The notes under the pieces were generated by a model. The model ran no database searches. It was not told the origin of the DNA and saw only the letters and a list, made by a program, of their open reading frames with translations. A stretch of DNA of 64,000 nucleotides from Chryseobacterium sp. 3008163 (lineage in GTDB: Bacteria > Bacteroidota > Bacteroidia > Flavobacteriales > Weeksellaceae), in assembly GCF_003669035.1 (NCBI RefSeq), contig NZ_CP033070.1:496001-560000 (forward strand). Direction: 5' to 3'. The translations under genes were made by a program, and so were the position numbers. This document shows, piece by piece, positions 1-16,654 of this stretch. Each line of letters starts with the position of its first letter. Positions within the stretch are counted from its first letter, which is position 1.

Positions 1-11
1 GTAAAAAAAAT

Positions 12-42
12 AAAAAAACGCACCTTAAAAAAGATGCGTTTT
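12..42 (-). terminator. Intrinsic terminator after carB
   Basis: Inverted repeat AAAACGCA (15-22) / TGCGTTTT (35-42), with further pairing inside the loop. Read leftward it is followed by a run of seven T. It sits just past the carB stop and would end the pyrB-carA-carB transcript. Confidence 0.75.
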
Positions 43-67
43 AAAAAAAATATTTTAGATCCGAAAA

Positions 68-3000
68 TTACATCGTCTCCATTTTGAAACTCATGCTTTC
101 GATTACTTTCAGGATTGCTTCAACCGTATCCATTGATGTTAAACAAGGAACACCGTTTTCGACACTCATTCTTCTGATCTGGAAACCGTCTCTTTCAGAC
201 TGTTTTCCTTTCGTCATGGTGTTGACAACATATTGAACTTTTCCTTTCTGAATTAAGTCGATTAAGTTGACACTTTCCTCTCCTATTTTGTATCCGATTT
301 TACAAGGAATCCCTTGTTCTGCAAAGAACTTTGCAGTTCCTTCTGTTGCCCAGATTCTGAAGCCAACTTCATGGAATCTTGATGCCAAATCAGCTGCTTC
401 CTGCTTGTGTTTATCAGCTACCGTGAATAAGATTGAACCGTGCATAGGAACTTTTCTTCCCGCTGCAACCAATCCTTTGTACAAAGCTTTCTCTAAAGTA
501 GTATCTTTCCCCATTACTTCTCCCGTAGACTTCATTTCTGGTCCTAAAGAGATATCAACCTTGGTTAATTTTGAGAAAGAGAACACAGGAACTTTTACGA
601 AAACACCTTCTTTGTTGGGAACCAATCCGTTTTTATAGCCTAAATCTTTCAGTTTCTGACCTAAAATCGCTTTGGTAGCCAGGTTTGCCATCGGAACATC
701 CGTAATTTTAGACAAGAAAGGAACTGTTCTTGATGAACGTGGGTTTACTTCAATCACATATACATTTCCTTCAAAAAGAACGTACTGAATATTCATTAAA
801 CCAATCACATTCAATCCTTTAGCCAATCTTTCGGTATAATCTACCAAAGTATCGATTTCTGCCTGAGAAACATTCTGTGGCGGATAGACTGCAATCGAGT
901 CACCGGAGTGAACACCTGCTCTTTCGATATGCTCCATAATTCCAGGAATGATTACTGTTTCGCCGTCGCAAATCGCATCTACTTCCACTTCTCTTCCCGT
1001 AATGTAACGATCCACCAAAACCGGCTGATCCGGACTTGCATCTACCGCAAATTCCATGTAGTGAGCCAATTCTGCTTCATTGTACACAATTTCCATTGCT
1101 CTACCTCCCAAAACATAGCTTGGACGAACCAAAACCGGATAACCGATCTCGTTGGCAATCACAATCGCTTCTTCTTTTGAAGTTGAAGTTTTTCCTAAAG
1201 GCTGAGGAATTCCCATTTCCTGAAGGGCTTTTTCAAACTTATCTCTGTTTTCAGCTCTATCAAGATCTTCTAAAGAAGTTCCTAAAATCTTAACTCCGTA
1301 AGCTGCTAATTTATCTGCTAAATTGATGGCAGTTTGTCCACCGAATTGAACTACAACACCTTTTGGTTTTTCAAGGTCGATGATACTCATCACATCCTCT
1401 TCCGTTAATGGCTCAAAGTATAATTTATCTGAAATCGAGAAGTCTGTAGAAACTGTTTCAGGATTATTGTTGATGATAATCGCTTCGTAGCCCATTTCTT
1501 TGATTGCCCAAACAGAGTGAACGGTTGCGTAATCAAACTCAACACCCTGCCCAATTCTGATTGGTCCCGAACCTAAAACGATAATTTTTTCTTTGTCGGT
1601 AACTACAGATTCGTTTTCCTCTTCGTAAGTTCCATAGAAATATGGAGTTTCGCTTTCAAATTCAGCAGCACAAGTGTCTACCATTTTGTAAACCGGAATG
1701 ATTCCGTTTTCTTTTCTGAAATTGTAAACTTCTCTTTGAGTAGACTCCCACAAATGAGCGATATTCTGATCTGAGAAACCTAATTTTTTAGACTGAATCA
1801 AAATTTCTTTATCGAATCTGTTAGCGGCAATTGTCTTTTCGAAATCGACTAATTTCTTTAATTTCCAGATGAAGAATTTATCGATTTTGCTCCATTCTAC
1901 GATTTGTTCCCAATCGTAACCTCTTCTTAAAGCGTCACAAATGATAAACAATCTTTCGTCATCACAAACTCTGATTCTTCTTTCGATATCTTCGTCCGTT
2001 AAAGCTGCAGCCTGTTTTGTTTTTAAACCTAAATGTCTCAAACCTGTTTCCAAAGAACGCACCGCTTTTTGTAAAGACTCTTCGAAATTTCTTCCGATCG
2101 CCATTACTTCACCTGTCGCTTTCATTTGAGTTGACAATCTTCTGTCAGCTGTTTCGAATTTATCGAATGGGAATCTCGGGAATTTAGTTACTACATAATC
2201 CAAAGCCGGTTCGAAACAAGCGTAAGTTTTACCCGTAACCGGATTCATAATTTCATCTAAAGTTAATCCTACCGCAATTTTTGCAGCAATTTTAGCAATC
2301 GGATAACCTGTTGCCTTACTTGCCAAAGCCGATGAACGAGAAACTCTTGGGTTTACCTCGATGATATAATATTCGAATGAGTGCGGATCTAAAGCCAACT
2401 GTACGTTGCATCCTCCTTCGATTCCTAAAGCTCTGATGATTTTCAGGGAAGCATTTCTCAACATCTGATATTCTCTGTCTGAAAGCGTCTGAGAAGGTGC
2501 TACAACGATTGAGTCACCGGTATGAACTCCCACCGGATCTATATTTTCCATGTTACAAACCACAATCGCGTTGTCGTTTGCATCACGCATTACTTCGTAT
2601 TCAATTTCTTTGAAACCTGCGATTGATCTTTCGATCAGACATTGCGTAACAGGGCTATATTTTAATCCTAATTCTGCAATTTCTTTCAATTCAGTTTCAT
2701 TAGCAGCGATTCCACCACCGGTTCCGCCCATTGTGAAGGCAGGACGAACGATTACCGGATAACCGATTTCTTCAGCAAAGCTAAGCGCTCCCTCAACCGT
2801 TGTTACGATATCTGATTCAGGAACGGGCTCGTTCAATTCTCTCATCAGTTCACGGAACAAATCTCTGTCTTCTGCTCTGTTGATGGCAGAAAGTGTCGTT
2901 CCTAAAACTTCCACTTTACATTCTTCAAGAATCCCTGAATTTTCCAATTCTACCGCCATGTTCAAACCTGTTTGTCCACCAAGGGTCGGTAAAAGTGCAT

Positions 3001-3250
3001 CAGGACGCTCTTTTCTGATGATGTGACTTACAAACTGAAGTGAAATCGGCTCGATGTAAACCTTGTCAGCGATTTCAACATCCGTCATAATCGTTGCAGG
3101 GTTTGAGTTGATCAAAATCACCTTGTAGCCTTCCTCTCTCAGAGAAAGACAAGCTTGCGTTCCTGCGTAATCAAATTCCGCTGCCTGACCGATGATGATT
3201 GGTCCGGAACCGATTACTAAAATTGTTTTTATATCTGTACGTTTTGCCAT
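68..3250 (-). CDS. carB: Carbamoyl-phosphate synthase large subunit
   Basis: Makes carbamoyl phosphate from bicarbonate, ATP and the ammonia channelled from CarA, feeding both pyrimidine and arginine synthesis. The 1060 residues are close to the usual length of about 1070. The internally duplicated ATP-grasp halves are visible: [17 protein letters not shown] near residue 14 is repeated as [16 protein letters not shown] near residue 550. The last 140 residues are the MGS-like allosteric domain (from about [11 protein letters not shown]), where UMP and ornithine act in E. coli. It is the last gene of a leftward operon after pyrB and carA, 141 bases after carA. The start [16 protein letters not shown] is standard for the family. 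No defect seen. Confidence 0.97.
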
Positions 3251-3391
3251 TTTCTAATTTAGATATGAGATGTTAGAAGTCAGATTTCAGACTTTTAGCA
3301 TTAATTTTTATTTAGATTTAATTTCACAATTTGTCATTGACTTTATAGAATTTTTAGAGATTCTTCCTTCGTCAGAATGACAGTAACAGTC

Positions 3392-4465
3392 TTACTTTTT
3401 AAAATCCTCCATCAACGTGATGAAATCATCAAACAAGTAATTCGCATCTTCTGGCCCTGGGCTCGCTTCCGGGTGATACTGAACTGAGAAGCAAGGGTGA
3501 ATTTTATGTTTCAATCCTTCATTTGTTCTGTCATTCAATGCGATATGGGTTTCAATTAAATCTGTTCCTTTAAGGCTTTCCTGATCAACAGCATAACCGT
3601 GGTTTTGAGAAGTAATAGCCACTTTGTTTTTTTCTAAATCTAAAACCGGATGATTTCCTCCTCTGTGACCGAATTTTAATTTGAATGTTTTTGCACCACA
3701 TGCCAATCCAATTAACTGATGTCCAAGGCAAATTCCGAAAATTGGAACTTTTCCTAACAATCCACGAATCATCTCTAAAGCCTGTTGGTTATCTTCTGGA
3801 TCTCCAGGACCGTTGGATAACATGATTCCATCCGGATCCATTAACAGAATTTCTTCAGCTGTAGTATCATGAGAAACAACAATGATGTCGCAGTTTCTTT
3901 GAGATAACTCTCTGATTATTCCTAATTTAGACCCAAAATCCACAAGCACTACTTTAAGTCCTCTTCCCGGATTGGCGTAAGAAGTTTTTGTAGAAACCTG
4001 CTCCACCTGATTGGTTGGGAAAGTCGTTGATTTTAATTCTTCAACGGTAGTATTTTCGTCTGCATCTGCATTCACGATTTTTCCTTTTACCACTCCGGAA
4101 TTACGAAGAATTCTTGTCAGTCTTCGGGTATCAATTCCTGAAATTCCTGAAAGATTTTTCTTTTTAAACAGTTCTTCTAAAGTAATCTGTGTTCTGAAAT
4201 TGGAAGGTAAATCGCAAATTTCTTTTACAATAAAACCTTTGATTGCAGGCTCGATGCTTTCGTAGTCATCACGGTTAATCCCGTAATTTCCGATCAGCGG
4301 ATACGTCATGCAAACAATCTGACCACAATAAGACGGGTCAGAAATCAATTCCTGATATCCCGTCATTCCGGTATTGAAAACCACCTCTCCTGCTGTCTCC
4401 AATTCTGCTCCGAAACCTTCTCCATGAAATACTTCACCGGACTCCAGTATTAATTTTTTCTTCAT
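3392..4465 (-). CDS. carA: Carbamoyl-phosphate synthase small (glutaminase) subunit
   Basis: Hydrolyses glutamine and passes ammonia to CarB. The N-terminal CPSase domain (about 1-150) is followed by a class I glutamine amidotransferase domain. The nucleophile lies in GICLGHQLIG (Cys246 from the chosen start), and the His-Glu part of the triad is in QYHPEASPGP near the C-terminus. I start it at MKKKLILESGEVFHGEG (ATG at 4465, 357 residues). An in-frame ATG 60 bases upstream would add Lys-rich residues encoded by a dispersed intergenic repeat and is very unlikely. It lies between pyrB and carB in one leftward operon. Confidence 0.96.
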   Translation of the reverse strand: MKKKLILESGEVFHGEGFGAELETAGEVVFNTGMTGYQELISDPSYCGQIVCMTYPLIGNYGINRDDYESIEPAIKGFIVKEICDLPSNFRTQITLEELFKKKNLSGISGIDTRRLTRILRNSGVVKGKIVNADADENTTVEELKSTTFPTNQVEQVSTKTSYANPGRGLKVVLVDFGSKLGIIRELSQRNCDIIVVSHDTTAEEILLMDPDGIMLSNGPGDPEDNQQALEMIRGLLGKVPIFGICLGHQLIGLACGAKTFKLKFGHRGGNHPVLDLEKNKVAITSQNHGYAVDQESLKGTDLIETHIALNDRTNEGLKHKIHPCFSVQYHPEASPGPEDANYLFDDFITLMEDFKK

Positions 4466-4512
4466 TTTAACTTTTATCTTTATTTCTATTTTATCTAAAT
4501 CTTTCTCTTTAA

Positions 4513-4568
4513 ACCACCCCGTCAAAAATTCTTTGAATTTTCGCCACCCCTCCAGAGGAGGGGAATTT
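4513..4568. repeat. Dispersed-type intergenic element with CCCCTCC hairpin
   Basis: The pyrB-carA gap holds a perfect hairpin, CCCCTCC (4547-4553), loop AGA, GGAGGGG (4557-4563). Next to it, read leftward, are GGGGTGGCG, an AATTC-AAAG-AATTT palindrome and GACGGGGTGG. From memory, elements of this wording recur between genes in Chryseobacterium and relatives. Only one copy is in this window, so its repetitive nature is recalled rather than shown. The long hairpin could affect pyrB-to-carA expression. Confidence 0.5.
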
Positions 4569-4620
4569 TTAGAGCAATTTATTTTTGAACTTTCACTTGG
4601 CTTTTTAAACTTTAAACTTT

Positions 4621-5511
4621 TTAATTAAAAGAAAATCCTTTTTCCTCTAAAGCATTTTTCAGAATCGCCATTCTTGCGAAAACCCCGTTCTGCATTTGCT
4701 TGAAGATTCTTGAGCGTTCACACTCTACCAGATCAGTATCGATCTCTACACCTCTGTTGATTGGTGCGGGATGCATAATGATGGCTTCTTTTTTCATTGT
4801 TTTTTCTCTGGCTTTTGTCAAACCATATTTCTTATGATATTCAGAAGCTGAGAAACTCATTTTTGAATCATGTCTTTCATGCTGAATTCTCAATAACATC
4901 AAAACATCCACATCGTGAATCATCTCATCTACAGAAAGATAGGTTCCGTCAATTAAAGCTCCTTCGTCAAACCATTGTTCAGGTCCTGAGAAGTATACTT
5001 TCGCTCCTAATCTTCTTAATGCTTCTGCGTTCGAATTGGCAACACGACTGTGTTTCACATCTCCGACGATTCCGATTTTTAAACCTTCAAAGGTTCCGAA
5101 TTCCTGATAAATTGTCAGTAAATCGAGCATACATTGTGAAGGATGATTTCCCGTTCCGTCACCGCCGTTGATTACCGGAATGTTGATATTTTTTAATTCA
5201 TCAAAATAACGGTCTTTCTTATCTCTGATTACGACCAGATTTACCCCTATACTTTCAATTGTTTTTACTGTATCATATAAACTTTCACCTTTGTTGACAG
5301 AACTGTTGGATGCATCAAACGGAACGACCTTCAAACCTAATTTTCTTTCGGCAATATCAAAGCTTGTTTTAGTTCTCGTGCTGTCTTCAAAAAACAGATT
5401 TGAGCAGAAAACCTCACCTTCAATTTTAGCAGTTTTTCCGTTGGCAAAAGCTAAAGCTTCCGTCAGTATCTTATTGATTTTCTCTGTACTTAGTTCGGTA
5501 ATCGTAAACAT
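4621..5511 (-). CDS. pyrB: Aspartate carbamoyltransferase catalytic subunit
   Basis: Catalyses carbamoyl phosphate + aspartate to N-carbamoylaspartate, the committed pyrimidine step, in the cytoplasm. Its 296 residues are slightly shorter than the usual 305-310. The carbamoyl-phosphate loop STRTKTSF is near residue 45, followed by the HPSQCMLDL motif and a C-terminal HPAPINRG loop that binds aspartate. No pyrI regulatory-subunit gene is adjacent; downstream come carA and carB. Only 20 to 30 bases upstream of its ATG is an intrinsic terminator preceded by a short leader ORF, so expression is probably set by attenuation (see 5533-5667). Confidence 0.96.
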
Positions 5512-5532
5512 AATATCTTAATTTTTGAACAT

Positions 5533-5560
5533 AAAAAAAGCGAAGAAAATATCTTCGCTT
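5533..5560 (-). terminator. Leader terminator (attenuator) upstream of pyrB
   Basis: Nine-base stem AAGCGAAGA (5538-5546) / TCTTCGCTT (5552-5560) with a five-base loop. Read leftward it ends in seven T (5533-5539). No leftward gene lies upstream that it could terminate (the next gene, Lrp, is divergent), and pyrB starts about 20 bases further on. It therefore acts within the pyrB leader, as in E. coli pyrBI. Confidence 0.8.
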
Positions 5561-5630
5561 AAAATAAATAAATATCGTAAAGGGCGTCTACGCCCGGTAA
5601 TTCTAATGATATAAATACTGTGTTATTCAT
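5559..5630 (-). CDS. Putative pyr leader peptide (23 codons)
   Basis: A short leftward ORF from ATG at 5630 to TAA at 5559-5561, beginning MNNTVFISLE and ending DALYDIYLF. Its last codons are U-rich (TTT ATT TAT-type), and its stop codon overlaps the first bases of the terminator stem. A ribosome following RNA polymerase closely would cover the 5' arm and prevent termination. This is the expected layout for UTP-sensitive attenuation as in enterobacterial pyrBI (known from E. coli). Here the function is inferred from layout only. The start is six bases from the promoter -7 box, so translation may be leaderless. Confidence 0.5.
   Translation of the reverse strand: MNNTVFISLELPGVDALYDIYLF
5582..5595 (-). 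promoter_or_regulatory. GC-rich pause-type hairpin in pyr leader
   Basis: Perfect inverted repeat GGGCGT-CT-ACGCCC inside the leader ORF, followed leftward by the U-rich tract and then the terminator. The position matches the transcription pause hairpin of the E. coli pyrBI leader. The hairpin is plain in the sequence; the pausing role is inferred. Confidence 0.5.
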
Positions 5631-5636
5631 TAGGTG

Positions 5637-5667
5637 CAAAGATATAACATTTGGGTAACATGACAAA
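5637..5667 (-). promoter_or_regulatory. Bacteroidetes-type promoter of the pyr operon
   Basis: Read leftward: TTTG (5667-5664), 19 bases, TATCTTTG (5644-5637). This fits the Bacteroidetes housekeeping consensus TTTG-N(17-23)-TAnnTTTG exactly. Transcription should start within a few bases of 5630. Confidence 0.75.
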
Positions 5668-5725
5668 GCGAAACTTTAAAAAAATTAAAAAACTTCAATC
5701 GCTGGTTATTCTCATTTATTCTTAA

Positions 5726-5733
5726 TATTTTTG
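5726..5733 (+). promoter_or_regulatory. Possible -7 box for the Lrp-family gene
   Basis: TATTTTTG matches TAnnTTTG, 20 bases before the start codon at 5754. I see no clear TTTG box at the expected spacing, so this is a weak call. Confidence 0.35.
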
Positions 5734-5753
5734 TTAGAATTCAAATACAGTTT

Positions 5754-6215
5754 ATGGACGCAAAAGACAGGATGATTCTCAGCATAATTCAGGAAGATTC
5801 TACTTTCTCGGTGAAAGAAATTTCAGAGAAAATAGGTTTGACCTTTACTCCAACCTATGAACGCATCAAACAGCTGGAGAAGCAAGGTATTATTGAGAAA
5901 TATGTCGGTCTTCTGAACCGTGAAAAACTGGGTTTAAATATTGTTGTTTATTGTAATGTCCGCCTCAAAGAACAGTCTAAAAAAGTTTTGGAAACTTTCG
6001 AGAAAAACATCATGCAACACGATGAAGTTCAGGAAATCATTAGTCTTTCCGGCGAATACGATTATATGTTGAAAATCATTGCTAAGGATATTAATTCTTA
6101 TAATGAATTCGCTGTCAACATTATTTCAAATATTCCTAATATTGGGCAATATCACAGTTCTATTGTTCTTCACGAGGTTAAAAAATCTACTAAGTTTAAG
6201 ATTGATTTGGGATAA
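5754..6215 (+). CDS. Lrp/AsnC family transcriptional regulator
   Basis: 153 residues, the normal size for the family. An N-terminal winged helix-turn-helix (about 1-60: DRMILSIIQEDSTFSVKEI..., recognition helix near TYERIKQLEKQGII) is followed by a RAM ligand-binding/oligomerisation domain (about 70-145, with the SGEYDYMLKI strand). Members sense amino acids or related metabolites and often control neighbouring genes. It is divergent from pyrB, and its 3' side faces the arginine cluster, so control of nitrogen or arginine genes is plausible but unproven. The start MDAKDRMIL is the only sensible one. Confidence 0.92.
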   Translation: MDAKDRMILSIIQEDSTFSVKEISEKIGLTFTPTYERIKQLEKQGIIEKYVGLLNREKLGLNIVVYCNVRLKEQSKKVLETFEKNIMQHDEVQEIISLSGEYDYMLKIIAKDINSYNEFAVNIISNIPNIGQYHSSIVLHEVKKSTKFKIDLG

Positions 6216-6262
6216 TTTTTTTAAAAATAAAATTATCCTTTTAACCACAGAAAGTACGATTC

Positions 6263-6745
6263 ATGAATTATAGAAAATGGATATTATTAGTAATAGGATT
6301 ATTTTTGATTGTTTCCAAATTTTTTCTAAAAGACAATTTTAATCTTAATGAAAATGATTTAATCCAGAAAGAAATAACTGTAAAAGCAGTAAGAGATATT
6401 GGTAATAAAAATTCTTATGATAAATATGTAATTTTTTCTGATAATTATCCTTGCGAGTTTATTATTGACAATTCAGGGGGAGGTGCTTCATATTGGAAAA
6501 TTGAAGATAAAGTTAAAGTAAATGATAAACTTTTTGTTGGAATCAACAATAGTCAGGCAAATAATCTTAACAACAAAGGCAAAGTCTTTATTTATTCCTT
6601 AAATAAAAACAACTCCTATATTTTTACTTTTGAGAACTATTTGAAAGAACGTAAATCTAGAAATATAAGATATGATATTTTAGGTTACATTATATTGATA
6701 TTTATTGTCTATAAATTATTAAAATCTGATAAGAAAGATAACTAA
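6263..6745 (+). CDS. Hypothetical protein with two membrane segments
   Basis: 160 residues, not recognised. One hydrophobic helix is at the N-terminus (about 6-22, WILLVIGLFLIVSKFFL) and one near the C-terminus (about 134-150, ILGYIILIFIVYKLL). Between them is a polar domain of about 110 residues rich in Asn, Lys and Asp, with a Gly-Gly-Gly turn. The tail is Lys-rich. The topology suggests an inner-membrane protein with its middle domain outside the cytoplasm. It follows the Lrp gene by 47 bases and may be co-transcribed; nothing indicates a function. Confidence 0.7.
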   Translation: MNYRKWILLVIGLFLIVSKFFLKDNFNLNENDLIQKEITVKAVRDIGNKNSYDKYVIFSDNYPCEFIIDNSGGGASYWKIEDKVKVNDKLFVGINNSQANNLNNKGKVFIYSLNKNNSYIFTFENYLKERKSRNIRYDILGYIILIFIVYKLLKSDKKDN

Positions 6746-6797
6746 TCATCATTTTATCAAGATAAGAAGCATTGAATGTTTTATCGTTCATAAAACC

Positions 6798-8102
6798 TTA
6801 ACCCAACAACTTATTCTTCAACTTATTGAATTGATATTCAATCTTATCCAGACAAAGATTTCCTATACTTCCTTGGTGAGTATGATTCAAATTTTTTATC
6901 TCAAAATCAAATTCATTATTTTCAATCTCCTGCCCTACTTTTACATACGCATCACGGAAAGAACTTCCGTTTTTCACTTCTTCATTGATCTTTTCTACGC
7001 TAAAAAGATATTTATACTTTTCATCTTCCAAAATCCCATCTTTCACCTGAATATTCGGTAATGTATAGCTTAAAATTTCAAGACATTCTTTCAAGGAATC
7101 GATTGCAGGGAAAAGAATTTCTTTCGTCAACTGCATATCTCTGTGATATCCTGAAGGAAGATTATTCGTCAATAAAATAAACTCATTCGGTAACGACTGA
7201 ATTCTGTTGCAACGGGCACGAACTAGTTCAAAAATATCAGGATTTTTTTTGTGAGGCATGATACTGCTTCCTGTTGTAAACTCTTTAGGAAAGCTTATAA
7301 AATCAAAATTCTGACTTAAATATAAACAAACATCATACGCAAATTTTCCTAATGTTCCAGCCAAAGTTGCCATTGCCATCGACAGCATTTTCTCTGACTT
7401 TCCGCGTGTCATTTGAGCATACACTGAATTATAATTCATCGATTGAAACCCTAAATTATACGTCGTACTCTCACGGTCAATCGGGAAAGACGAACCATAT
7501 CCCGCCGCTGAACCCAATGGATTTTTATTAATGATATTTTTAACCGAGAAAAGCATTTCAACATCATCCAACAAAGCTTCAGCATAAGCTCCAAACCACA
7601 ATCCAAACGATGAAGGCATGGCAATTTGTAAATGGGTATATCCCGGAAGAAGAACATTTTTATGCTGATCTGCCAATTTGATTAATATTTGAAAAAATTC
7701 ATCTGTCAACGCTGTGATTTCACGGATTTCATCTACTAAATACAGCTTTATATCCAATAAAACCTGATCATTTCTTGAACGAGCCGTATGAATTTTCTTT
7801 CCTGTATCTCCTAATTTTTCAATTAAAATAGATTCTACCTGCGAATGAATATCTTCTGCACTTTTATCGATTTCAAAAGTTCCGTTTTCGATATCTTTCA
7901 AAATTTCCTCTAAAACAGACAACATCTGCTCTGATTCTTCATCAGTAATAATTCCAACTTCTGCCAACATTTTACAATGCACCATCGAACCTTTCACGTC
8001 GTATTTTGCTAAACGCTCATCAAAGTCAAGATCTTTCCCAACTGTAAATTTATTGACTAATATATTAGTGGCGTTGTTGTCTTTTTGCCATATCTTTTTC
8101 AT
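6798..8102 (-). CDS. argH: Argininosuccinate lyase
   Basis: Splits argininosuccinate into arginine and fumarate, the last step of the pathway. 434 residues of the fumarase/aspartase superfamily, slightly short of the usual 450-460. The signature GSSIMPHKKNPD is at about 278-288 and contains the mobile catalytic loop. HTARSRNDQ near residue 100 and the TxLQ-type stretch GYTHLQIAMPSS are also present. It is the last gene of the arginine cluster, separated from the M20 deacylase by a 317-base gap holding a structured repeat, so it may have its own promoter or reduced read-through. Intact. Confidence 0.96.
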   Translation of the reverse strand: MKKIWQKDNNATNILVNKFTVGKDLDFDERLAKYDVKGSMVHCKMLAEVGIITDEESEQMLSVLEEILKDIENGTFEIDKSAEDIHSQVESILIEKLGDTGKKIHTARSRNDQVLLDIKLYLVDEIREITALTDEFFQILIKLADQHKNVLLPGYTHLQIAMPSSFGLWFGAYAEALLDDVEMLFSVKNIINKNPLGSAAGYGSSFPIDRESTTYNLGFQSMNYNSVYAQMTRGKSEKMLSMAMATLAGTLGKFAYDVCLYLSQNFDFISFPKEFTTGSSIMPHKKNPDIFELVRARCNRIQSLPNEFILLTNNLPSGYHRDMQLTKEILFPAIDSLKECLEILSYTLPNIQVKDGILEDEKYKYLFSVEKINEEVKNGSSFRDAYVKVGQEIENNEFDFEIKNLNHTHQGSIGNLCLDKIEYQFNKLKNKLLG

Positions 8103-8167
8103 AATTATTCTTTTTTTCTAAAAATGGAAACTCTAAAAAAATCCATTTAAATATTATTTTAAAATTT

Positions 8168-8366
8168 TCTTTTGTCTTGAAACAAAAGAAACAAAAATTC
8201 AAGACTGGAAACTCATGCTAAAATTTTAAACAATTTCCTAAAATTCCCAAAACTCGGGCGGAAACTACGATTAGATATAATAAGATTATTTTTTGCCGCC
8301 ACTCAAACAGTGGAAATTTTTTAACGTAAATTCTTTAAAATTTCTTAACGCTTCCGTTTCCTAAGT
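8168..8366. repeat. Structured dispersed intergenic repeat, copy 1
   Basis: About 200 bases sharing several blocks with 12638-12858, in the same orientation. Blocks: TTCTTTTGTCTTGAA; AACAAAAGAAACAAAAATTC; CAAAACTCG; CTCAAACAGTGG; AATTTTTTAACG; CTTAACGCT. Two stems are visible: GTCTTGAA (8174-8181) / TTCAAGAC (8198-8205), and GGCGG (8257-8261) / CCGCC (8296-8300). In the other copy the second stem has different bases but still pairs. It fills most of the 317-base argE-argH gap, which holds no ORF worth calling. Confidence 0.75.
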
Positions 8367-8419
8367 CATTATTGATATACTTTTCATAGACTTCAATCAT
8401 CCATCATCCCTTTTCCAGC

Positions 8420-9502
8420 CTATAAAACCTTTTCAAGTATCTTAATATAAATCTCAATCCCCTCTTCTATTTCCTTTATATATATGTATTCATCCGCAGT
8501 GTGAGAACGTGTGCTGTCGCCGGGACCGAGTTTTACCGATGTACATGGAATAATCGCTTGATCGGATGAAGTTGGCGAACCGTAAGTTGTCCTGCCGATT
8601 TCCAAACCTGCTTTTACAAACGGATGATCCATTTCTATTTTTGAAGAATTTAATCTGAAAGACCTTGCTGCTAAGGTCGATTTCATCTGCGACTGGATGA
8701 TTTCAAACACTTCTTCATTAGAATATTCGTCTGTAACCCTAACATCTAAAGTAAAAACACAAGATTCCGGAACTACGTTATGCTGAACTCCCGCATGAAT
8801 TCCTGACAACGTCACTTTAACTTCACCCAAATAATCTGAAACTTTTGGAAATTTAAAGCTTAAAATTTGTTGCAAATCTTCCATACATTTCACAATAGAA
8901 TTATCGTCATTCGGATGAGCGGCGTGAGAAGGAGTGCCTTTCATTTCCCCGTCAATGACTAACAATCCTTTTTCTGCAATCGCCAGATTCATCTGCGTTG
9001 GTTCTCCCACAATGGTAAGCTCGATATTGGGTAATTGAGGAAATAAAGCTTCAATTCCGTCAAAACCTGAAATCTCTTCCTCAGCCGTCAAAGCAACAAC
9101 TAAATTATATTTTAAATCTTCTTGAGCATAAAAATGCAAAAATACCTGCGCCATAGAAACCAAAGAAGCACCCGCATCATTACTTCCCAATCCAAACAAC
9201 TTTCCATCCTTTTCAATCGCTAAAAATGGGTCTAAAGTGTAAGCTTTATTTGGCTTTACGGTGTCATGATGCGTATTCAGCAAAATCGACGGTTTGAAAA
9301 CATCAAAGTTTTTGTTCACCGCCCAGATGTTATTTTTAAAACGTTTTGTAGGAATCTGATGTTTTTTGAAAAAATTTTCAATCTCTACAGACGTATTAAA
9401 TTCATCTTTGCTGAATGACGGAATTTCTATCAGTTTTTTCAACAAATCCACTGCGTTATTCAGTAATTCTTCTTTATTATAAACAGATTTCAGTTCCTGC
9501 AT
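8420..9502 (-). CDS. argE: M20 metallopeptidase family N-acylornithine/N-acylcitrulline deacylase
   Basis: A zinc-dependent deacylase of the ArgE/DapE family, 360 residues. Metal-ligand regions are visible: NTHHDTV near residue 80, the GLGSNDAGAS aspartate near 110, and ALTAEEEISG with the catalytic Glu pair near 140. A dimerisation lid follows (about 175-285), then a C-terminal His in DSTRSHTADEY. In a pathway using an acylornithine carbamoyltransferase the acyl group is removed after carbamoylation. The substrate is therefore probably N-succinyl- or N-acetylcitrulline rather than acylornithine (inference). It lies between argB and argH in the leftward cluster. Confidence 0.88.
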   Translation of the reverse strand: MQELKSVYNKEELLNNAVDLLKKLIEIPSFSKDEFNTSVEIENFFKKHQIPTKRFKNNIWAVNKNFDVFKPSILLNTHHDTVKPNKAYTLDPFLAIEKDGKLFGLGSNDAGASLVSMAQVFLHFYAQEDLKYNLVVALTAEEEISGFDGIEALFPQLPNIELTIVGEPTQMNLAIAEKGLLVIDGEMKGTPSHAAHPNDDNSIVKCMEDLQQILSFKFPKVSDYLGEVKVTLSGIHAGVQHNVVPESCVFTLDVRVTDEYSNEEVFEIIQSQMKSTLAARSFRLNSSKIEMDHPFVKAGLEIGRTTYGSPTSSDQAIIPCTSVKLGPGDSTRSHTADEYIYIKEIEEGIEIYIKILEKVL

Positions 9503-9556
9503 GATGGTTTTCTATATGGTTTTTCAATTCGGTTTCTTTTATTAAAAAAACCTTAT

Positions 9557-10270
9557 TTACATTATTTTTATGGCTCCAAGAGCGTTTTCCAGCTTAGGTA
9601 AAATTCCTTTGTGAAGTTTTCCTTCATTTTTTAATGTTGAAAATTCTCCTTCAGAAATATTTTTTATGACAGATTCAGGATTTTCGACATCTTCCAAAAC
9701 TCCTTCTTTATCAAAACAATACAACAATTCAACGTCATATTTTGAAGACAGCGCCTGAGCAATCACCGAAGCAATCGTATCCGCATTGGTATTGAAAAGA
9801 TTTCCTTTTTTGTCGTGAGTGATTGCTGAAAATACAGGAACAAGTTTAAGTTTAATTAATTTTGAAATCAATTTTCTGTTCACACTTTTCTTCTCAATAT
9901 CTCCTACAAATCCGAAATCTATTTCTGCGTGTTCTCTTTTTTTCGCTTTAATTAAATTAGCATCAGCTCCCGAAAATCCTATTGCCTTACATTTTTTCTG
10001 CTGAAGTTTAGCCACGATATTTTTATTGATACCTCCTGCATACACCATTGCCACAATATCCAACGTATCTTTATCCGTGATTCTTCGTCCGTTGATCATT
10101 TTTTGTTCAACACCTAATTTATCAGCCAATATGGTTGCTAATTTTCCACCTCCGTGAACTAAAATTTTCTTCTCCTTAATTTCAGAAAACTGCTTCAGAA
10201 ATTCGTTCAATAATTCCTCATCATCAATTAAAGCACCGCCGATTTTTACAACAAAAAGCTTTTCTTGCAT
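9557..10270 (-). CDS. argB: N-acylglutamate kinase
   Basis: Phosphorylates N-acetyl- or N-succinylglutamate, step two of arginine synthesis. An amino-acid kinase fold of about 237 residues, on the short side (E. coli ArgB 258). Visible motifs are the N-terminal VKIGGALID, HGGGK near residue 40, GFVGDI, and NTNADTIAS near the nucleotide site. I start at MQEKLFVVKIGG (ATG 10270). The longer in-frame start at 10297 would overlap argF', whereas this one leaves a 7-base gap typical of an operon. Which acyl group it carries should follow the neighbouring carbamoyltransferase, which looks succinyl-specific. Confidence 0.93.
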   Translation of the reverse strand: MQEKLFVVKIGGALIDDEELLNEFLKQFSEIKEKKILVHGGGKLATILADKLGVEQKMINGRRITDKDTLDIVAMVYAGGINKNIVAKLQQKKCKAIGFSGADANLIKAKKREHAEIDFGFVGDIEKKSVNRKLISKLIKLKLVPVFSAITHDKKGNLFNTNADTIASVIAQALSSKYDVELLYCFDKEGVLEDVENPESVIKNISEGEFSTLKNEGKLHKGILPKLENALGAIKIM

Positions 10271-10277
10271 GATTGAA

Positions 10278-11254
10278 TTATTTTGAATTAATTTCATCTA
10301 AAATTTCAGAGAAAACAGCCTGCGCAGAGAAAATTCGGTTTTTTGCCTGTTGGTAGATGATTGAATTTTCACCATCCATTACCTCATCACTCAATTCTAC
10401 ATTTCGACGAACCGGAAGACAGTGCATTACTTTCCCCTTATTAGTATTGGCTAATTTTTCGTTCGTCAGCATCCAGTTTTCTTTCACTTCAGGCATTGCT
10501 GCATAATTATCAAAAGATGACCAGTTTTTCACATAAATAAAATCTGCATCTTTCAAGGCTTCATCTTGATTATGAATCACTTTTACATCTTTCGTGAAGT
10601 TTTTATCTAAATCGTACCCTTCAGGATTAGCTATCACTAACTCAACATCCATTTCCTGCATCCATTCTGCGAAGGAATTTCCTACCGCATGAGCAATCGG
10701 TTTGATGTGAGGAGCCCAAGTCAGCACCACTTTAGGCTTTCGGTTTACACTGAGCTTGTCGAAGTGTTCCAAGTTTTCTGTAATCGTGATGCAATCTGCC
10801 AAACTTTGCAAAGGATGACGTGTTGCAGATTCCAGAGAAATTACCGGAACTTTTGCATGTTGTTCGAACTGGCTTAAAATACTTTCGTTAACATCGTCTT
10901 CCTTATGTTTCATTCCAGCAAAACAACGAACCGCGATGATATCGCAATATTGGTTTAAAACTTCAATGGCATCTTTGATATGTTCAACAGTATCGCCATT
11001 CATTACAGCTCCGTCTGCAAATTCTAAATTCCAGGCTTCCTGAGCTGCGTTTAACGTCAAAACATTTAAACCTAAATTTTGTGCTGCAATCTGACTACTT
11101 AAACGAGTTCTCAAACTTGAATTTAAAAATACAAGTCCTATTGTTTTTCCTTTTCCTTTCTCGGTTTCCGAAAGAGGATTTTCTTTAATTTGTAAAGCTT
11201 TTTTATAATTTCCTGTAAGTTTTTAACATCGCTTACAGAGGTGAATTTTTTCAT
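10278..11254 (-). CDS. argF': N-succinyl/acetylornithine carbamoyltransferase (frameshifted as read)
   Basis: Carbamoylates an N-acylated ornithine. The reading frame from ATG 11254 breaks in a run of six A (T on the plus strand, 11199-11204). One more A restores a continuous 325-residue protein with SLRTR (48-51), ATRHPLQSLAD and HCLPVRRN. Residue 90 is Val in NGDTVEHI. The Bacteroides fragilis succinylornithine enzyme has Pro90 and the Xanthomonas acetylornithine enzyme Glu92 at this site; published replacement of that Glu by Val, Ser, Ala or Pro converts the latter to succinylornithine. I therefore infer succinylornithine as substrate. A palindromic repeat (10748-10766) adds about seven residues, matching the excess over the 318-residue B. 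fragilis protein. Homopolymer error or a true mutation cannot be told apart here. Confidence 0.85.
10748..10766. repeat. Short palindromic repeat inside argF' coding sequence
   Basis: CACTTCGACAAGCTCAGTG on the coding strand, the same 15-base core CTTCGACAAGCTCAG as at 14013-14031. The flanking bases differ but are complementary in both copies (CA/TG here, TC/GA there). It is translated in frame as HFDKLSV between the ITITENLE and RKPKVVL segments of the carbamoyltransferase. Confidence 0.75.
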
Positions 11255-11442
11255 TTTGAATTGATTTTAAACCAAAAAAGTTTTAACATATTAGTACACT
11301 TTAGAAGTTTTATATTATTGAAAATATTTAGAACACATGAGTAGAAAATCAAAGATTTTCAGAACCTTAAGTGAACTTCTTCAACTTTATCTTTTAACTT
11401 AATTAAACTAAAGTGTTTAAAATTTTTGTAGTTAATTAAAAA

Positions 11443-12581
11443 TTAGAGATTTTCTAAAATAGTTTTCAGAGCACCGATGAAAATATCGGTTTCTTCTTTT
11501 TTAATGTTAAGTGCCGGAAGAATCCTTAACACAGCCTTATCATTTGAATTTCCTGTGAAAATATGATGATTGTACAACAAGCTATTCCTCACTTCTGAGC
11601 AATCCCTGTCGAGTTCAATCCCAATCATCAAACCTTTCCTTCGGATCGTTTTAATATGTGGAAAATCTTTAATTTCATTTTCAATATATTTGCCCATTTC
11701 ATGAGCATTTTCGATGAGATTTTCATCTTTCATAACGTCTAACACAGCGATCGCAGCAACACAAGCCAAATGATTTCCACCAAAAGTTGTTCCCAGCAAA
11801 CCGTTGCTTGCCTGAAATTTAGGATGAATCAATACTCCGCCGATTGGAAAACCATTACCCATTCCTTTTGCGGTTGTGATAATATCAGCTTCAATTCCAA
11901 ATTCCTGATGAGCAAAGAAATACCCGCTTCTTCCATAACCGGACTGAACTTCATCTAAAATCAAAACCGCATTGTATTTTTCGCACAGTTCTTTGATTTT
12001 AGTTAAAAATTCAACAGTTGGAATCATAATTCCGCCAACTCCTTGGATTCCTTCGATAATCACCGATGAAATTTCACTTCCCTGATTTTCAAAAATTGCT
12101 TCAAGCTGTTCAATATTATTCCATTCAGATTTAATGAATCTTTCGTCATAATTTACCGGAGCAACAATTTTAGGATTATCTGTCACAGAAACTGCTGCCG
12201 AAGTTCTGCCGTGAAATGAACCTGAGAAATACAACACTTTACTTTTTCCATTGTGAAAAGAAGCTAGTTTTAAAGCATTTTCATTCGCTTCAGCTCCTGA
12301 ATTGCATAAAAACAGATTGTAATCTTCCAAACCTGAAAGTTTTCCTAATTTCTCAGCTAATTCAGTTTGCAATTCATTTTGAACAGAATTTGAATAAAAA
12401 GATATTTTATCTAATTGTTTTTTAATTGAGTTTGATAATGTGGATGATTGTGCCCGATAGAAATAACGGCATGACCTCCGTAAAAATCAAGATATTTTTC
12501 TCCTTTATCATCCCAAAGAAATGATCCTTGGGCTTTTACCGGATTTATGTTGAATAATGGATATACGTTGAATAAATTCAT
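11443..12581 (-). CDS. argD: N-acylornithine aminotransferase (frameshifted as read)
   Basis: A PLP class III aminotransferase that makes N-acylornithine from the semialdehyde. From ATG 12581 the frame reads MNLFNVYPLFNINP...HNHPHYQTQLKN and stops after a run of six A (plus-strand T, 12418-12423). With seven A it runs on into QLDKISFYSN and the rest, giving 379 residues, normal for ArgD. The PLP lysine is in TTAKGMGNGF (Lys239 in the restored protein), with LILDEVQSGYGR before it. It is the second of three consecutive arginine genes with a one-A deletion. If the deletion is real, the downstream ORF from a TTG or Met near 12372 would lack about 70 residues of the N-terminal domain. Confidence 0.88.
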
Positions 12582-12637
12582 GTCTATTTATAAATGATAA
12601 TTGATGTTTGATGAATGATTTCATCTTTCTTATATTT

Positions 12638-12858
12638 TTCTTTTGTCTTGAAATCGAAGATTCGACGTAGTCAAACAAAAGAAACAAAAATTCAAGACTT
12701 GGAAAATTCTGCTAAAAATTTAAATTAAATCCTAAAATCTCCAAAACTCGCACGAATTGACTATTTGTTCTTTGATTGAGGATTTGTCTCGTGCTCAAAC
12801 AGTGGGAATTTTTTAACGGATTAAATTTCAATTTTCTTAACGCTCCATTTTCCTAGGT
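12638..12858. repeat. Structured dispersed intergenic repeat, copy 2
   Basis: Homologous to 8168-8366 and in the same orientation. The first stem GTCTTGAA (12645-12652) / TTCAAGAC (12691-12698) is identical, but its loop carries an extra 21 or so bases around CGAAGATTCGACG. The second stem is GCACGA (12750-12755) / TCGTGC (12789-12794), complementary despite differing from copy 1. The conserved tail CTCAAACAGTGG, AATTTTTTAACG and CTTAACGCT follows. It occupies the 330-base gap between argC and argD, where I see no other gene. Confidence 0.75.
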
Positions 12859-12911
12859 CTGTTTTTACTTTGAGTTTTAAAATTCACTATTGGCTTATTA
12901 ACTATTCACAT

Positions 12912-13876
12912 TTAAAACGCCACAGGCTTTAAGTTCAATCCTGAGTTTTCTTCCCAACCCATTGCAATATTCATGTTTTGAACTGCCTGTCCGGAAGCTC
13001 CTTTCAACAAATTGTCAATCGCTGAGTGAATAACTGCAACATTTCCACTCTTTTCTATATGAATCACACAGCGATTGGTATTGACAACCTGTTTTAAATC
13101 AATTGCTTTCTCACTTACCTTTACAAAAGGCTCATCTGCATAAAAATCCTGATACAATTGATTGATATCTGAAAGTTCTAAATCTGTTTTCACCGTGGAA
13201 CTCGTAAAAATTCCTCTCGCAAAATCTCCTCTCCATGGAACAAAATTCAGACTGATTTCATTCGTATTAAAAGAAACTAACTGCTGTAAAATCTCATCCA
13301 CATGTTGATGTGTCAAAGTTTTATATGCTGAAATATTATCGTTTCTCCAGGTAAAATGCGTCGTTGGCTGCAATGACTGACCGGCACCTGTTGAACCTGT
13401 AATTCCCGTTGTGTAAACCTCATGCAACAATCCTTTTTGAGCTAATGGAAGCAAGGCCAGTTGAATTGCTGTCGCAAAACATCCCGGATTTGCAATGCTT
13501 TTTGATCCTAAAAGTTGTTTTTTGTTGATTTCAGGCAAACCGTAGATAAAATTTCTGTTTCCTAAATTACCATCTAAACGAAAATCATTTCCTAAATCGA
13601 TTACTAATGTTTCATCTTTTATATTATTTTGAGTCAGCCAATTTTGACTTTCTTTGTGAGGAAGACATAAAAACAAAATGTCTACATCTTCAGGCTGATC
13701 CGTTAAAACCATTTCACAAACCGTCGCTAAATCCGGGTACAAATCTGAAATCTTTGTCCCCGAATTCGAACGACTATATAAAAAACTCAAAGACACATTG
13801 GGATGAAAAGCCAACAGACGAACTAATTCGCTTCCTGTGTAGCCGTTGGCACCGATTATTCCGATATTTTTTTCAT
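12912..13876 (-). CDS. argC: N-acyl-gamma-glutamyl-phosphate reductase (frameshifted as read)
   Basis: An NADPH-dependent reductase making N-acylglutamate semialdehyde. The family N-terminus (NIGIIGANGYTGSELVRLL, an NADP-binding GxxGxxG type) is encoded directly upstream of the long ORF, but the ATG at 13876 is out of frame. It is followed by seven A (plus-strand T, 13867-13873), and eight are needed. Restored length is 321 residues, normal for the type. The catalytic Cys is in IANPGCFATA (Cys133 restored), with GITGSTGAGQSL and the C-terminal IDNLLKGASGQA also present. The short form starting at TTG 13814 would lack the nucleotide-binding strand and should be inactive. First of the three broken arginine genes. 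Confidence 0.88.
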
Positions 13877-14012
13877 TTTTCTTTTTTCCACAGGTTGCAC
13901 CTGAGGCTATTATTGTTGAACCCTTAGGGTTAATTTATACATTGAATCTCTTGCAGCACGACTTGAGCGGAAATCCTTTTGTGAGGAGGAACGACGAGCA
14001 AAAGATTGGGAG

Positions 14013-14031
14013 TCCTTCGACAAGCTCAGGA
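14013..14031. repeat. Short palindromic repeat, intergenic copy
   Basis: TCCTTCGACAAGCTCAGGA between argC and argG; it shares the core CTTCGACAAGCTCAG with the copy inside argF' (10748-10766). The outer bases differ between copies yet remain complementary, which suggests selection or copying as a hairpin. The rest of the 186-base gap holds a small AACCCT/AGGGTT palindrome (about 13912-13924) and nothing else I recognise. Confidence 0.7.
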
Positions 14032-14062
14032 TAAACTACAGGCTGATAAAGCTGCCCAAATC

Positions 14063-15250
14063 TTATTTATTTATCTGATGATATATATTTAAAGAATTGC
14101 TTACGATTTTTGTGTAGCCCTTTACATCTTCACCTGTCCATGCTCTGTTCGCCTCGCCATAGCTTCCGAATTTATCGGACATCAGATCATGTTTAGACTC
14201 AATTCCGTTTAAGATAAATCTGTATGGATGAAGGGTCACAAATACTTTTCCGCTTACCGTTTTTTGAGAATCGACTAAAAAAGACTCGATATTTCTCATC
14301 ACAGGATCTAAGAAAAGTGCTTCGTGAAGCCAGTTTCCGTACCAATCAGACAATTGAGACTTCATCATCTGCTGATATTTTGAAAGCGTATGTTTTTCCA
14401 ATAAATGATGCGCTTTGATGATCACAGATGCCGCCGCCGCTTCGAAACCGACTCTTCCTTTAATTCCAACAATCGTATCACCAACGTGAATATCGCGACC
14501 AATTCCATAAGCAGAAGCCAATTCTTCAATCTTTCGAATCGCATACACCGAATGTTCAAAGTTTTCTCCGTTTACCGCTACAACTTCACCATTTTTAAAC
14601 TCAATTTCCAGTTCTGAAGGCTGAGTTTCTTTAATTTGAGATGGAAAAGCTTCTTCAGGAAGATAATTTCGTGATGATAACGTTTCTTTTCCACCAACTG
14701 AAGTTCCCCAAAGTCCCTTATTTACAGAATATTGTGCTTTTTGGAATTCCATTTCGTAGCCGTGACTTTTCAAAAACTCAATTTCCTCTTCACGGGATAG
14801 AGACATATCACGGATCGGCGTAATAATTTCTACATTCGGACACATTACCAGAAAAATTAAATCAAAACGAACCTGGTCATTTCCCGCACCTGTACTTCCG
14901 TGAGCAATCGCATCAGCACCGATTTCAATGGCAAATTTTGCAATTTCCTGTGCCTGAATCGTACGTTCAGCACTTACAGACAAAGGATAGGTATTGTTTT
15001 TCAACACATTTCCAAAGATCAAATACTTCACACAAGAATTGTAATAATCTTCCTGAGCATCAACGCACCTGTATTCTTTCACTCCAAGATTGAAGGCTTT
15101 TTTCTCCAGTTCTTTTTCCTCTTCTTTAGAAAAACCTCCGGTATTTACAGTGACTGCATACACCTCATACCCAAGTGTTTCACTCAAATATTTGGCGCAG
15201 TAAGAGGTATCTAAACCTCCGCTAAATGCTAAGATTACTTTCTTGCTCAT
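14063..15250 (-). CDS. argG: Argininosuccinate synthase
   Basis: Joins citrulline and aspartate with ATP. 395 residues from MSKKVILAFSGGLDTSYC (ATG 15250). The SGGLDTS pyrophosphatase loop is at about 9-15 and HGSTGAGNDQVRF lies near 110. The start at 15289 would add an unrelated NPKINIK tail lying inside the previous gene, so I reject it. It overlaps the end of the upstream GNAT gene by 29 bases, which ties the two into one transcript. Second gene of the leftward arginine cluster and intact, unlike argC, argD and argF' downstream. Confidence 0.96.
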   Translation of the reverse strand: MSKKVILAFSGGLDTSYCAKYLSETLGYEVYAVTVNTGGFSKEEEKELEKKAFNLGVKEYRCVDAQEDYYNSCVKYLIFGNVLKNNTYPLSVSAERTIQAQEIAKFAIEIGADAIAHGSTGAGNDQVRFDLIFLVMCPNVEIITPIRDMSLSREEEIEFLKSHGYEMEFQKAQYSVNKGLWGTSVGGKETLSSRNYLPEEAFPSQIKETQPSELEIEFKNGEVVAVNGENFEHSVYAIRKIEELASAYGIGRDIHVGDTIVGIKGRVGFEAAAASVIIKAHHLLEKHTLSKYQQMMKSQLSDWYGNWLHEALFLDPVMRNIESFLVDSQKTVSGKVFVTLHPYRFILNGIESKHDLMSDKFGSYGEANRAWTGEDVKGYTKIVSNSLNIYHQINK

Positions 15251-15821
15251 TTTTATATTGATTTTCGGGTTGATTATTTTCAACACCAATTACTTTATTA
15301 TTATCAGGAACGAAAAGCATTGCGGTACAAAGACAGTTTTTTCGTTCTTTTTTCATTAAAATATCATAATTCACACAGCTTTTACAGCCGTTCCAGAATT
15401 CTTCATCTTGTGTTAATTCAGAATAAATTACCGGCTTGTAACCTAAATCGCTGTTGATCTTCATGACAGCCAAACCCGTCGTCAATCCGAAAATTTTTGC
15501 AGTCGGGTATTTGTCTCTGGATAATTGAAAAACTTTATCCTTAATTAAAGTTGCAGCTCCTCTTTCCCTGAATTTTGGGGAAACAATCAACCCTGAGTTG
15601 GCCACAAACTGACCATGTGACCAAGTTTCTATATAACAAAACCCCACCCACTCACCGTTTTCAGTAGCGACAACAGCATTGCCATCTGAAATCTTTTTAC
15701 TTAAATATTCTATAGAACGTTTTGCGATGCCCGTTCCTCGTCGCTGTGCAGAATCATACATCTCCTGCTGTATTTCACTCACATACATTAAATGTTCGCA
15801 TGAGGAAATTTGTATTTCCAT
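15222..15821 (-). CDS. GNAT acyltransferase, candidate first arginine enzyme
   Basis: 199 residues, GNAT fold. An N-terminal segment (SYEHLMYVSEI-type start, about 1-50) is followed by the acyl-CoA motif A region GLIVSPKFRERGAATLIKDKV (about 98-118), a variant of RGxGxG/A. A C-terminal region with several Cys follows (CKSCVNYDILMKKERKNCLC). As first gene of the arginine cluster, overlapping argG, it is the best local candidate for the glutamate N-acyltransferase step. No classical argA or argJ is present in the window. With a succinyl-type carbamoyltransferase, succinyl-CoA may be its donor. The fold is seen in the sequence; the role rests on context. Confidence 0.75.
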   Translation of the reverse strand: MEIQISSCEHLMYVSEIQQEMYDSAQRRGTGIAKRSIEYLSKKISDGNAVVATENGEWVGFCYIETWSHGQFVANSGLIVSPKFRERGAATLIKDKVFQLSRDKYPTAKIFGLTTGLAVMKINSDLGYKPVIYSELTQDEEFWNGCKSCVNYDILMKKERKNCLCTAMLFVPDNNKVIGVENNQPENQYKNEQESNLSI

Positions 15822-15842
15822 TTATTTATCTGAATTTTTTGG

Positions 15843-15875
15843 CAAATTTAAAGCATATTATCTTTAAAAACCAAA
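15843..15875 (-). promoter_or_regulatory. Promoter of the arginine cluster
   Basis: Read leftward: TTTG (15875-15872), 21 bases, TAAATTTG (15850-15843), then 21 bases to the GNAT start codon. This matches the Bacteroidetes consensus. Confidence 0.6.
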
Positions 15876-15888
15876 TTAAAAAGATAAT
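15857..15888. promoter_or_regulatory. Inverted repeat over the arginine promoter, candidate operator
   Basis: Perfect 9-base arms ATTATCTTT (15857-15865) and AAAGATAAT (15880-15888) bracket the TTTG box. A further half-site ATTATCTT is at 15919-15926. The spacing suits a dimeric repressor or activator. The binding protein is unknown; the Lrp-type regulator at 5754 or the InsA-like protein at 15980 are candidates. Confidence 0.4.
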
Positions 15889-15957
15889 TTTATTGTTTAA
15901 TTAATATTAACAGGTATAATTATCTTATTGTTAAAATTTAATATTGCTAAATTATTA

Positions 15958-15965
15958 TATATTTG
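15958..15965 (+). promoter_or_regulatory. Possible -7 box for the InsA-like gene
   Basis: TATATTTG matches TAnnTTTG and ends 14 bases before the ATG at 15980. No TTTG box lies at the ideal distance. Confidence 0.35.
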
Positions 15966-15979
15966 CTAAAATACTATAT

Positions 15980-16396: not shown

Positions 16397-16654
16397 ATTT
16401 TAAAAGTTATGAGTTATTAATTATGATTTTTGAGTTCTGTAAACACAATCAATTTAATTAAACATTTATTAATCAAAACATTACTAAATAATTTAATCAA
16501 AAACAATAACTTTCAAATAAGAGTTTTCAACTCATAATTCATGACTAAAAACTTACAACTATATTATAACCACTAATATATATTAAATTTTCACAACTAA
16601 ATTATTAATTCCAATTTGGCTTTCACAAAATAACAGCCAAAAAATTAATAATTT

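Follow-up and report, generated by a model that had tools for sequence, protein, structure and literature searches.

In Bacillota pyr operons, pyrB is placed under the control of PyrR-dependent attenuation. At the Escherichia coli rph-pyrE locus, a translated frame ends just before an attenuator, and the ribosome on that frame relieves termination at low UTP. The E. coli pyrBI operon responds to UTP at two steps, the second control being reiterative initiation. At its attenuator, high UTP permits fast transcription and results in termination, while low UTP brings pausing of the polymerase with a following ribosome (described in the pyrBI passages of PMC10135430; the attenuator mechanism is also treated in a part of PMC4824070).

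Attenuation of another kind has been considered in the class to which Chryseobacterium belongs. In the relevant passages of a study on Flavobacterium psychrophilum, leader-peptide attenuators of amino-acid operons are reported as likely, and short-ORF attenuation is considered likely in the class; those attenuators are thought to serve amino-acid synthesis, and the section on 5' cis-regulatory RNAs does not name pyrB (PMC9723704). The words Bacteroidetes and pyrimidine are absent from the main text of a survey of premature terminators (PMC2965389). In the open-access literature, which leaves most subscription papers outside, our searches brought up no paper describing pyrimidine attenuation for this group.

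Here we describe the leader of pyrB in a 64,000-nt stretch of a Chryseobacterium genome (the window). We propose, with a probability of roughly 0.7, that a pyrBI-like, UTP-sensing attenuator relieved by the ribosome controls pyrB-carA-carB. This attenuator is probably of separate origin from that of E. coli.

The pyrB leader and its parts

The following features make up the locus; all lie on the minus strand.

5637..5667, minus strand: Bacteroidota-type promoter, TTTG at 5667-5664, N19, then TATCTTTG at 5644-5637; read from the sequence, with the box also present in parsed leaders
5631..5632, minus strand: expected transcription start, leaving a 5' UTR of 1-2 nt; placed by published spacing
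5603..5633, minus strand: predicted 5' hairpin with the leader start codon inside its stem (CUAAUG with CAUUAG)
5559..5630, minus strand: leader ORF MNNTVFISLELPGVDALYDIYLF, ATG 5630-5628, 23 sense codons, TAA 5561-5559
5582..5595, minus strand: GC hairpin GGGCG-UAGA-CGCCC, a candidate pause hairpin whose 3' end lies 21 nt before the terminator stem
5561..5581, minus strand: U-rich tract UUUACGAUAUUUAUUUAUUUU, a candidate UTP-sensitive pause region
5533..5560, minus strand: intrinsic terminator (the attenuator), stem 5560-5538 of 9 bp with a 5-nt loop, T run to about 5533
4621..5511, minus strand: pyrB, aspartate carbamoyltransferase catalytic chain, 296 aa, Bacillota type
3392..4465, minus strand: carA, second gene after the attenuator, identified from protein reading; the listed ORF, 4525-3392, begins at a TTG and the likely start is the ATG at 4465
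68..3250, minus strand: carB, third gene after the attenuator, identified from protein reading

An earlier, sequence-only reading of this DNA had placed most of these elements. When the minus strand was read directly, the promoter was present just as that reading gave it (TTTG-N19-TATCTTTG), and the 23-codon ORF, the GC hairpin, the U-rich tract and the terminator were found at the claimed places and in the claimed order. The ORF stop does overlap the 5' arm of the terminator, by the two bases that the TAA shares with the stem. Two details required revision. The GC hairpin was located correctly, but the pairing proposed for it, GGGCGT with ACGCCC, would leave a 2-nt loop, and the predicted stem is GGGCG with CGCCC. 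The terminator stem has the nine base pairs claimed, but not seven free U residues behind it, as two of the seven belong to the stem. Two further features had escaped that reading: a start codon close to the expected 5' terminus of the transcript, and the predicted hairpin around this codon (5633-5603).

The -7 box of this promoter is identical to that mapped in F. psychrophilum (relevant passages of PMC9723704) and in F. johnsoniae (likewise, PMC6847099), and a TAnnTTTG box stands ahead of the ORF in the parsed leaders of the family. The 121-nt leader has a predicted folding energy of -24.8 kcal/mol and is more stable than every one of 200 dinucleotide shuffles (z -3.47). When both strands of the window were scanned blindly for the leader architecture (a -7 box followed after 3-9 nt by an ATG that opens a short ORF extending to a terminator), this was the only site returned. 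No gene lies between the promoter and pyrB, and the 26 nt from the end of the terminator stem to the pyrB ATG leave little room for a second promoter. Therefore, transcripts of this promoter must read through the terminator.

Proposed mechanism and comparison with E. coli pyrBI

From this arrangement we infer the start site, translation of the ORF, a pause, dependence on UTP and relief by the ribosome. RNA polymerase would start 1-2 nt ahead of the leader AUG. With ample UTP it would outrun the first ribosome, the terminator would fold, and most transcripts would end at about 5533. When UTP is low, the polymerase would slow down in the U-rich tract after the GC hairpin; the ribosome would then close the gap and, once at the stop codon on the 5' edge of the terminator or close to it, cover the 5' arm and so allow read-through into pyrB. 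The leader peptide would have no role of its own.

As in E. coli pyrBI, whose pyrL we read in strain MG1655, a leader ORF, a U-rich stretch and a terminator precede the gene for aspartate carbamoyltransferase. The sequence-only reading had called the attenuator enterobacterial-like, which is apt for the layout only: nothing here suggests derivation from pyrL, and the ORF of these leaders mostly ends at the edge of the terminator rather than passing through it. By eye, the leader peptides look unrelated to pyrL, and PyrB groups with Bacillota proteins in a tree that does not contain E. coli PyrB. Whereas pyrL has 44 codons, a GGAGG before its ATG and the terminator inside it, and ends 3 nt before pyrB, the ORF of the present family has 18-26 codons in most cases, an expected 5' UTR of 1-2 nt and no room for a Shine-Dalgarno sequence. 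The expected near-leaderless start thus sets these leaders apart from the known pyrBI system, as do a stop codon mostly at the 5' edge of the terminator and, in roughly half of the lineages, a predicted 5' hairpin that covers the AUG. The promoter class and the pyrB lineage differ as well, and pyrB is followed by carA rather than pyrI. Reiterative initiation has no visible counterpart here, as a run of three U is absent from the expected start (UAAUGAAU). At E. coli rph-pyrE the upstream frame is a full-length gene, rph; here it is a short leader ORF.

Conservation of the leader in the family

The sequence-only reading held that a failure of close relatives to keep the ORF or the terminator would speak against it. 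Both are kept. The 108-nt leader of the window was matched in 173 of 173 Chryseobacterium genomes (E<=0.01), and a blind scan detected the architecture of leader ORF plus terminator at all 79 loci of other Weeksellaceae genera, Apibacter excluded. These 79 loci represent 77 distinct places, two genomes having been fetched twice. In 78 of the 79 loci the PyrB motif follows the architecture on the same strand at a distance of 150-420 nt; the 79th, where the fetched stretch is too short, was assigned by eye. Outside the family, none of 20 loci from the rest of the class displayed a leader ORF with a terminator, the scanned region being roughly 900 nt of a single strand around the start of pyrB. 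A terminator was found up to 350 nt upstream of pyrR in one of six longer class loci, and by eye it is the preceding gene's own.

To the count of loci belongs the count of genomes. PyrB was sought in 129 family genomes from outside the genus (49 + 80) and was present in 95: in 38 of the 49 (E<=1e-60), the remaining 11 having no match at 1e-15, and in 57 of the further 80 (E<=1e-50). The upstream region was taken for 85 of the 95; nine genomes were left out and one had only a PyrB fragment. The leader table omits loci L051-L080 (a second fetch of genus leaders), L111-L130 and L142-L148; of its 138 loci, ten failed the parser, namely the nine of Apibacter and L184, in which a full leader is seen by eye. 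The 128 parsed leaders (92 distinct) were reduced to 27 divergent cluster representatives, and most of the tests described below were made on these.

In genera g10, g19, g21, g28 and g29, every genome searched lacked a PyrB match; these bacteria may be pyrimidine auxotrophs or may use an undetected enzyme. Genome G184 (L090, L135) has two pyrB copies, each with a full leader and terminator, a duplication that could reflect contamination of the assembly.

The frame is kept while the peptide varies

In 25 of the 27 divergent leaders the ORF remains open to within 9 nt of the terminator, where 7.0 are expected from shuffled sequences (P 1.3e-13). Of the other two reading frames, one stays open in 1 leader and the second in 8. 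Stop positions were measured from the stem start as set by the parser, which is marked by GCGAAG or ACGAAG and corresponds to 5558 in the window. In 16 leaders the end of the stop codon falls in the interval from 5 nt upstream to 1 nt downstream of this point, and in 9 leaders the ORF runs into or through the terminator. In the remaining 2 the stop lies 9 and 15 nt short of the stem start, which counts against a pyrBI-like reading. The peptides themselves vary from genus to genus, and no peptide sequence is kept over the 27 leaders. Hairpin, U tract and terminator, like the open frame, are conserved across them. Many have similar endings, such as NNIYFI or DIYLF, because the nucleotides there are conserved.

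Transcription start and 5' hairpin

The distance from the -7 box to the ATG is nearly fixed: 6 nt in 120 of the 128 rows, 5 nt in seven and 7 nt in one. According to the relevant passages of two reports, the F. psychrophilum box spans -12 to -5 (PMC9723704), and in F. johnsoniae the G is at -5 and the gap between box and start is 4 or 5 nt (PMC6847099). Applied here, this spacing puts +1 at about 5632 (5631 with a 5-nt gap) and hence gives a 5' UTR of 1-2 nt. The AUG is thus expected almost at the 5' end of the transcript, making the ORF near-leaderless. According to the passages concerned, leaderless mRNAs make up 5.5% in F. psychrophilum (PMC9723704), and 5' UTRs shorter than 10 nt amount to 3.7% in Bacteroides thetaiotaomicron (PMC7366714).

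Partition-function calculations on the 27 leaders gave the AUG a mean pairing probability of 0.66. Shuffled sequences reach 0.45, a significant difference (Wilcoxon p 0.003, combined p 2e-6). The probability exceeds 0.9 in 13 leaders, lies between 0.5 and 0.9 in 3 and is lower in 11. A test for a contiguous helix, the geometry of which excluded hairpins with short loops, yielded p 0.059. A 4-bp helix with the AATG core occurs in 68 of 83 distinct 5' ends, and the base two before the AUG is partnered as T-A in 33, C-G in 17 and T-G in 2 and is unpaired in 16. These changes look compensatory, in a count where kin enter repeatedly and the longest helix was chosen, both of which favour pairing. 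The predicted 5' hairpin is thus enriched over the family, and appears in about half of its lineages. As modelled, it would hinder translation of the very ORF that the proposed mechanism needs, and to that extent it counts against our best reading.

U-rich tract and mid-leader hairpin

Only the final six codons of the ORF show an excess of U at the third position. There, 92 of 115 third bases are U in the 27 leaders, compared with 67.9 expected (sd 5.2); in the earlier codons the count is 107 of 177, with 108.8 expected. The expectations come from the codon usage of six genes in the window, hence from a single genome, and the earlier codons are the better control. The ATATTT of the tract falls in frames 0, 1 and 2 in 5, 12 and 2 leaders, respectively, and is missing in 8. 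Thus, the U tract upstream of the terminator is selected as nucleotides and not through the peptide. Overall, U accounts for 46% of the 25 nt directly before the terminator and 27% of the preceding 25 nt; its share of 35% in the early part of the ORF (-70 to -50) counts against the proposed mechanism. The hairpin in the middle of the leader is more stable than in shuffles when all 27 leaders are combined (p 2.9e-10), and in 17 of them 20-24 nt separate its 3' end from the parsed stem start. Taken singly, only 11 of the 27 reach p<0.05, which also counts against that mechanism.

These results bear on the most serious rival explanation, an attenuator that monitors translation and is not specific to UTP. 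In that case the leaderless ORF would report ribosome loading or translation capacity, and read-through would track growth rate. The geometry of ORF and terminator would be identical, and the near-leaderless start combined with a hairpin at the start codon would make loading the critical step. Such a device, however, would need neither a U enrichment at third positions confined to the codons just before the terminator nor a positioned hairpin, and the full leader has only one match in its own genome, before pyrB. We regard this explanation as improbable, though it is the rival that deserves most attention.

Constraint within Chryseobacterium

Among the leader matches listed for the genus, at least 35 are identical, the window's own genome included, and the weakest has 87% identity; a further search added one genome at 86%. 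The leader precedes pyrB at all 50 genus loci that were read, as confirmed by script for 42; the fetched stretch of the other 8 was too short for a check of the PyrB motif, and they were judged by eye. What variation exists falls mostly in the hairpin loop, in codons close to the start or immediately preceding the stop, and in the terminator loop. Even leaders whose loop is 3 nt longer preserve the frame and have the stop at the edge of the terminator or close to it. Third positions of the leader differ by 1.2% on average, versus 49% at the fourfold sites of pyrB (406 pairs from 29 genus loci). Among its named close relatives, the PyrB protein itself has nearly all from Chryseobacterium. No second copy of the leader was found in the window's own genome, where the one other match spans the terminator part only.

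This nucleotide constraint exceeds what either the peptide or a plain pyrBI mechanism needs, and it counts against our best reading. It is possible that the terminated leader RNA has a second function. An alternative explanation, in which the ORF is incidental and the leader is a ligand-binding RNA (riboswitch) or also acts in trans as a small RNA, would draw on the nearly invariant third positions and on the predicted terminated RNA of about 100 nt. The frame, however, is open far above chance; no Rfam match was found at E<=1 in positions 1-20000 of the window, and no aptamer-like core common to the genera was discerned by eye. We therefore give it little credence. One candidate of this kind, an aptamer-like internal loop formed by AUAUC and GAUAU around the GC hairpin, was dropped, since by eye it is kept only in the genus and its closest sister genus.

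No antiterminator found, and a peptide switch unlikely

In none of the 27 leaders does the terminator arm have an upstream complement of 6 nt or more, the longest complement being at the chance level; an antiterminator of the trp type is therefore unlikely. This result also weighs against a switch based on the peptide, be it an arrest peptide or an amino-acid attenuator with ribosome stalling at specific codons. The open frame and the shared peptide ends noted above would suit such a switch, but the window's leader peptide is free of single-amino-acid runs, the U tract occurs in all three frames, and the C-terminal likeness follows the conserved nucleotides. Slightly less credible still than a riboswitch, the peptide switch is in our view very unlikely. 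Least plausible is a constitutive partial terminator that merely lowers pyrB-carAB expression, which is compatible with the sequence taken alone but gives no reason for the kept ORF, the position of its stop, the position of the hairpin or the U-biased third positions.

The combination of an open ORF with a changing peptide, selection for U at the nucleotide level and the failure to find either an antiterminator or PyrR favours direct relief by the ribosome over amino-acid attenuation, a riboswitch or PyrR. The interpretation given in the sequence-only reading is in this way supported, and the evolutionary signature of the leaders fits ribosome-relieved, U-sensing attenuation better than it fits the rivals.

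No PyrR found in the family, and the origin of PyrB

A flavobacterial PyrR query found no match at E<=1e-6 in any of 55 family genomes, a few of them incomplete (six of the genus, including the window's own, and 49 others). The same query gave strong matches in all 7 controls from other families, among them the genome from which the query came. At 17 of the 20 class loci outside the family a PyrR-like ORF directly precedes pyrB, and an 18th was added by a separate PyrR search. The arrangement in those other Bacteroidota thus concerns the same pathway step in the same class, and differs in having a PyrR-like ORF before pyrB.

Among the matches listed, the PyrB proteins of the family share 41-47% identity with those of other members of the class. 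In a tree of 40 rows, a single branch (support 100/99) separates the family proteins and 12 of the 15 Bacillota rows from the remainder, and a clade uniting them with two other Bacteroidota rows was rejected (AU p 1.6e-5). By this grouping, PyrB is of the Bacillota type. A single origin of Weeksellaceae PyrB, that of Apibacter included, was not rejected (AU p 0.08). Despite the kinship of the enzyme, Bacillota-style PyrR attenuation does not match what is seen here, with PyrR found in 0 of 55 genomes, no Rfam match and no antiterminator complement.

A more elaborate form of the attenuation model may be considered, tentatively and as doubtful in its entirety. It posits that the leaderless ORF is the core of a UTP sensor with two gates, which would have arisen in Weeksellaceae as a replacement of PyrR after a Bacillota-type pyrB displaced the native pyrR-pyrB, possibly in two separate events, one of them in Apibacter. 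The AUG would be reachable only until the first 30-35 nt, which are U-rich, have been made; then the 5' hairpin would close over it. As the first gate, slow transcription at low UTP would leave time for a ribosome to load, and as the second, the pause in the U tract would let the loaded ribosome reach the terminator.

If the attenuator operates as proposed, UTP-sensing attenuation relieved by the ribosome would have arisen at least once outside enterobacteria, replacing a protein regulator across a family, and this in a phylum that has other promoters and lacks Shine-Dalgarno sequences. It would also imply that the polymerase and ribosome of Bacteroidota are coupled closely enough for such control. 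The leader would then offer a natural, compact reporter for coupling and for leaderless initiation in these bacteria.

Apibacter and minor observations

Apibacter, which has a distant PyrB, departs from the rest of the family. On the side of the proposed attenuator, a possible ORF started by TTG, with 47-54 codons up to the terminator, runs through the terminator in 8 of 9 genomes; this would be nearer to the E. coli pyrBI geometry than the other family leaders are. In the ninth, G212 (L194), no such terminator was found, which counts against the proposed attenuator.

Within the operon, the gap between pyrB and carA (4500-4620) contains a repeat-like element, CCCCTCC..GGAGGGG plus a GGGGTGG stretch. 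The same gap holds related or quite different elements in other species, which suggests REP-like mobile pieces inside the operon.

On the plus strand, divergent from the pyrB promoter, lies a gene that protein reading identifies as an Lrp/AsnC-like regulator (5754-6215). A stretch like TTTTTAGCAAAGATATATTAATTTAGCA recurs upstream of the leader promoters in several genera (several of L156-L176) and is seemingly part of a divergent gene.
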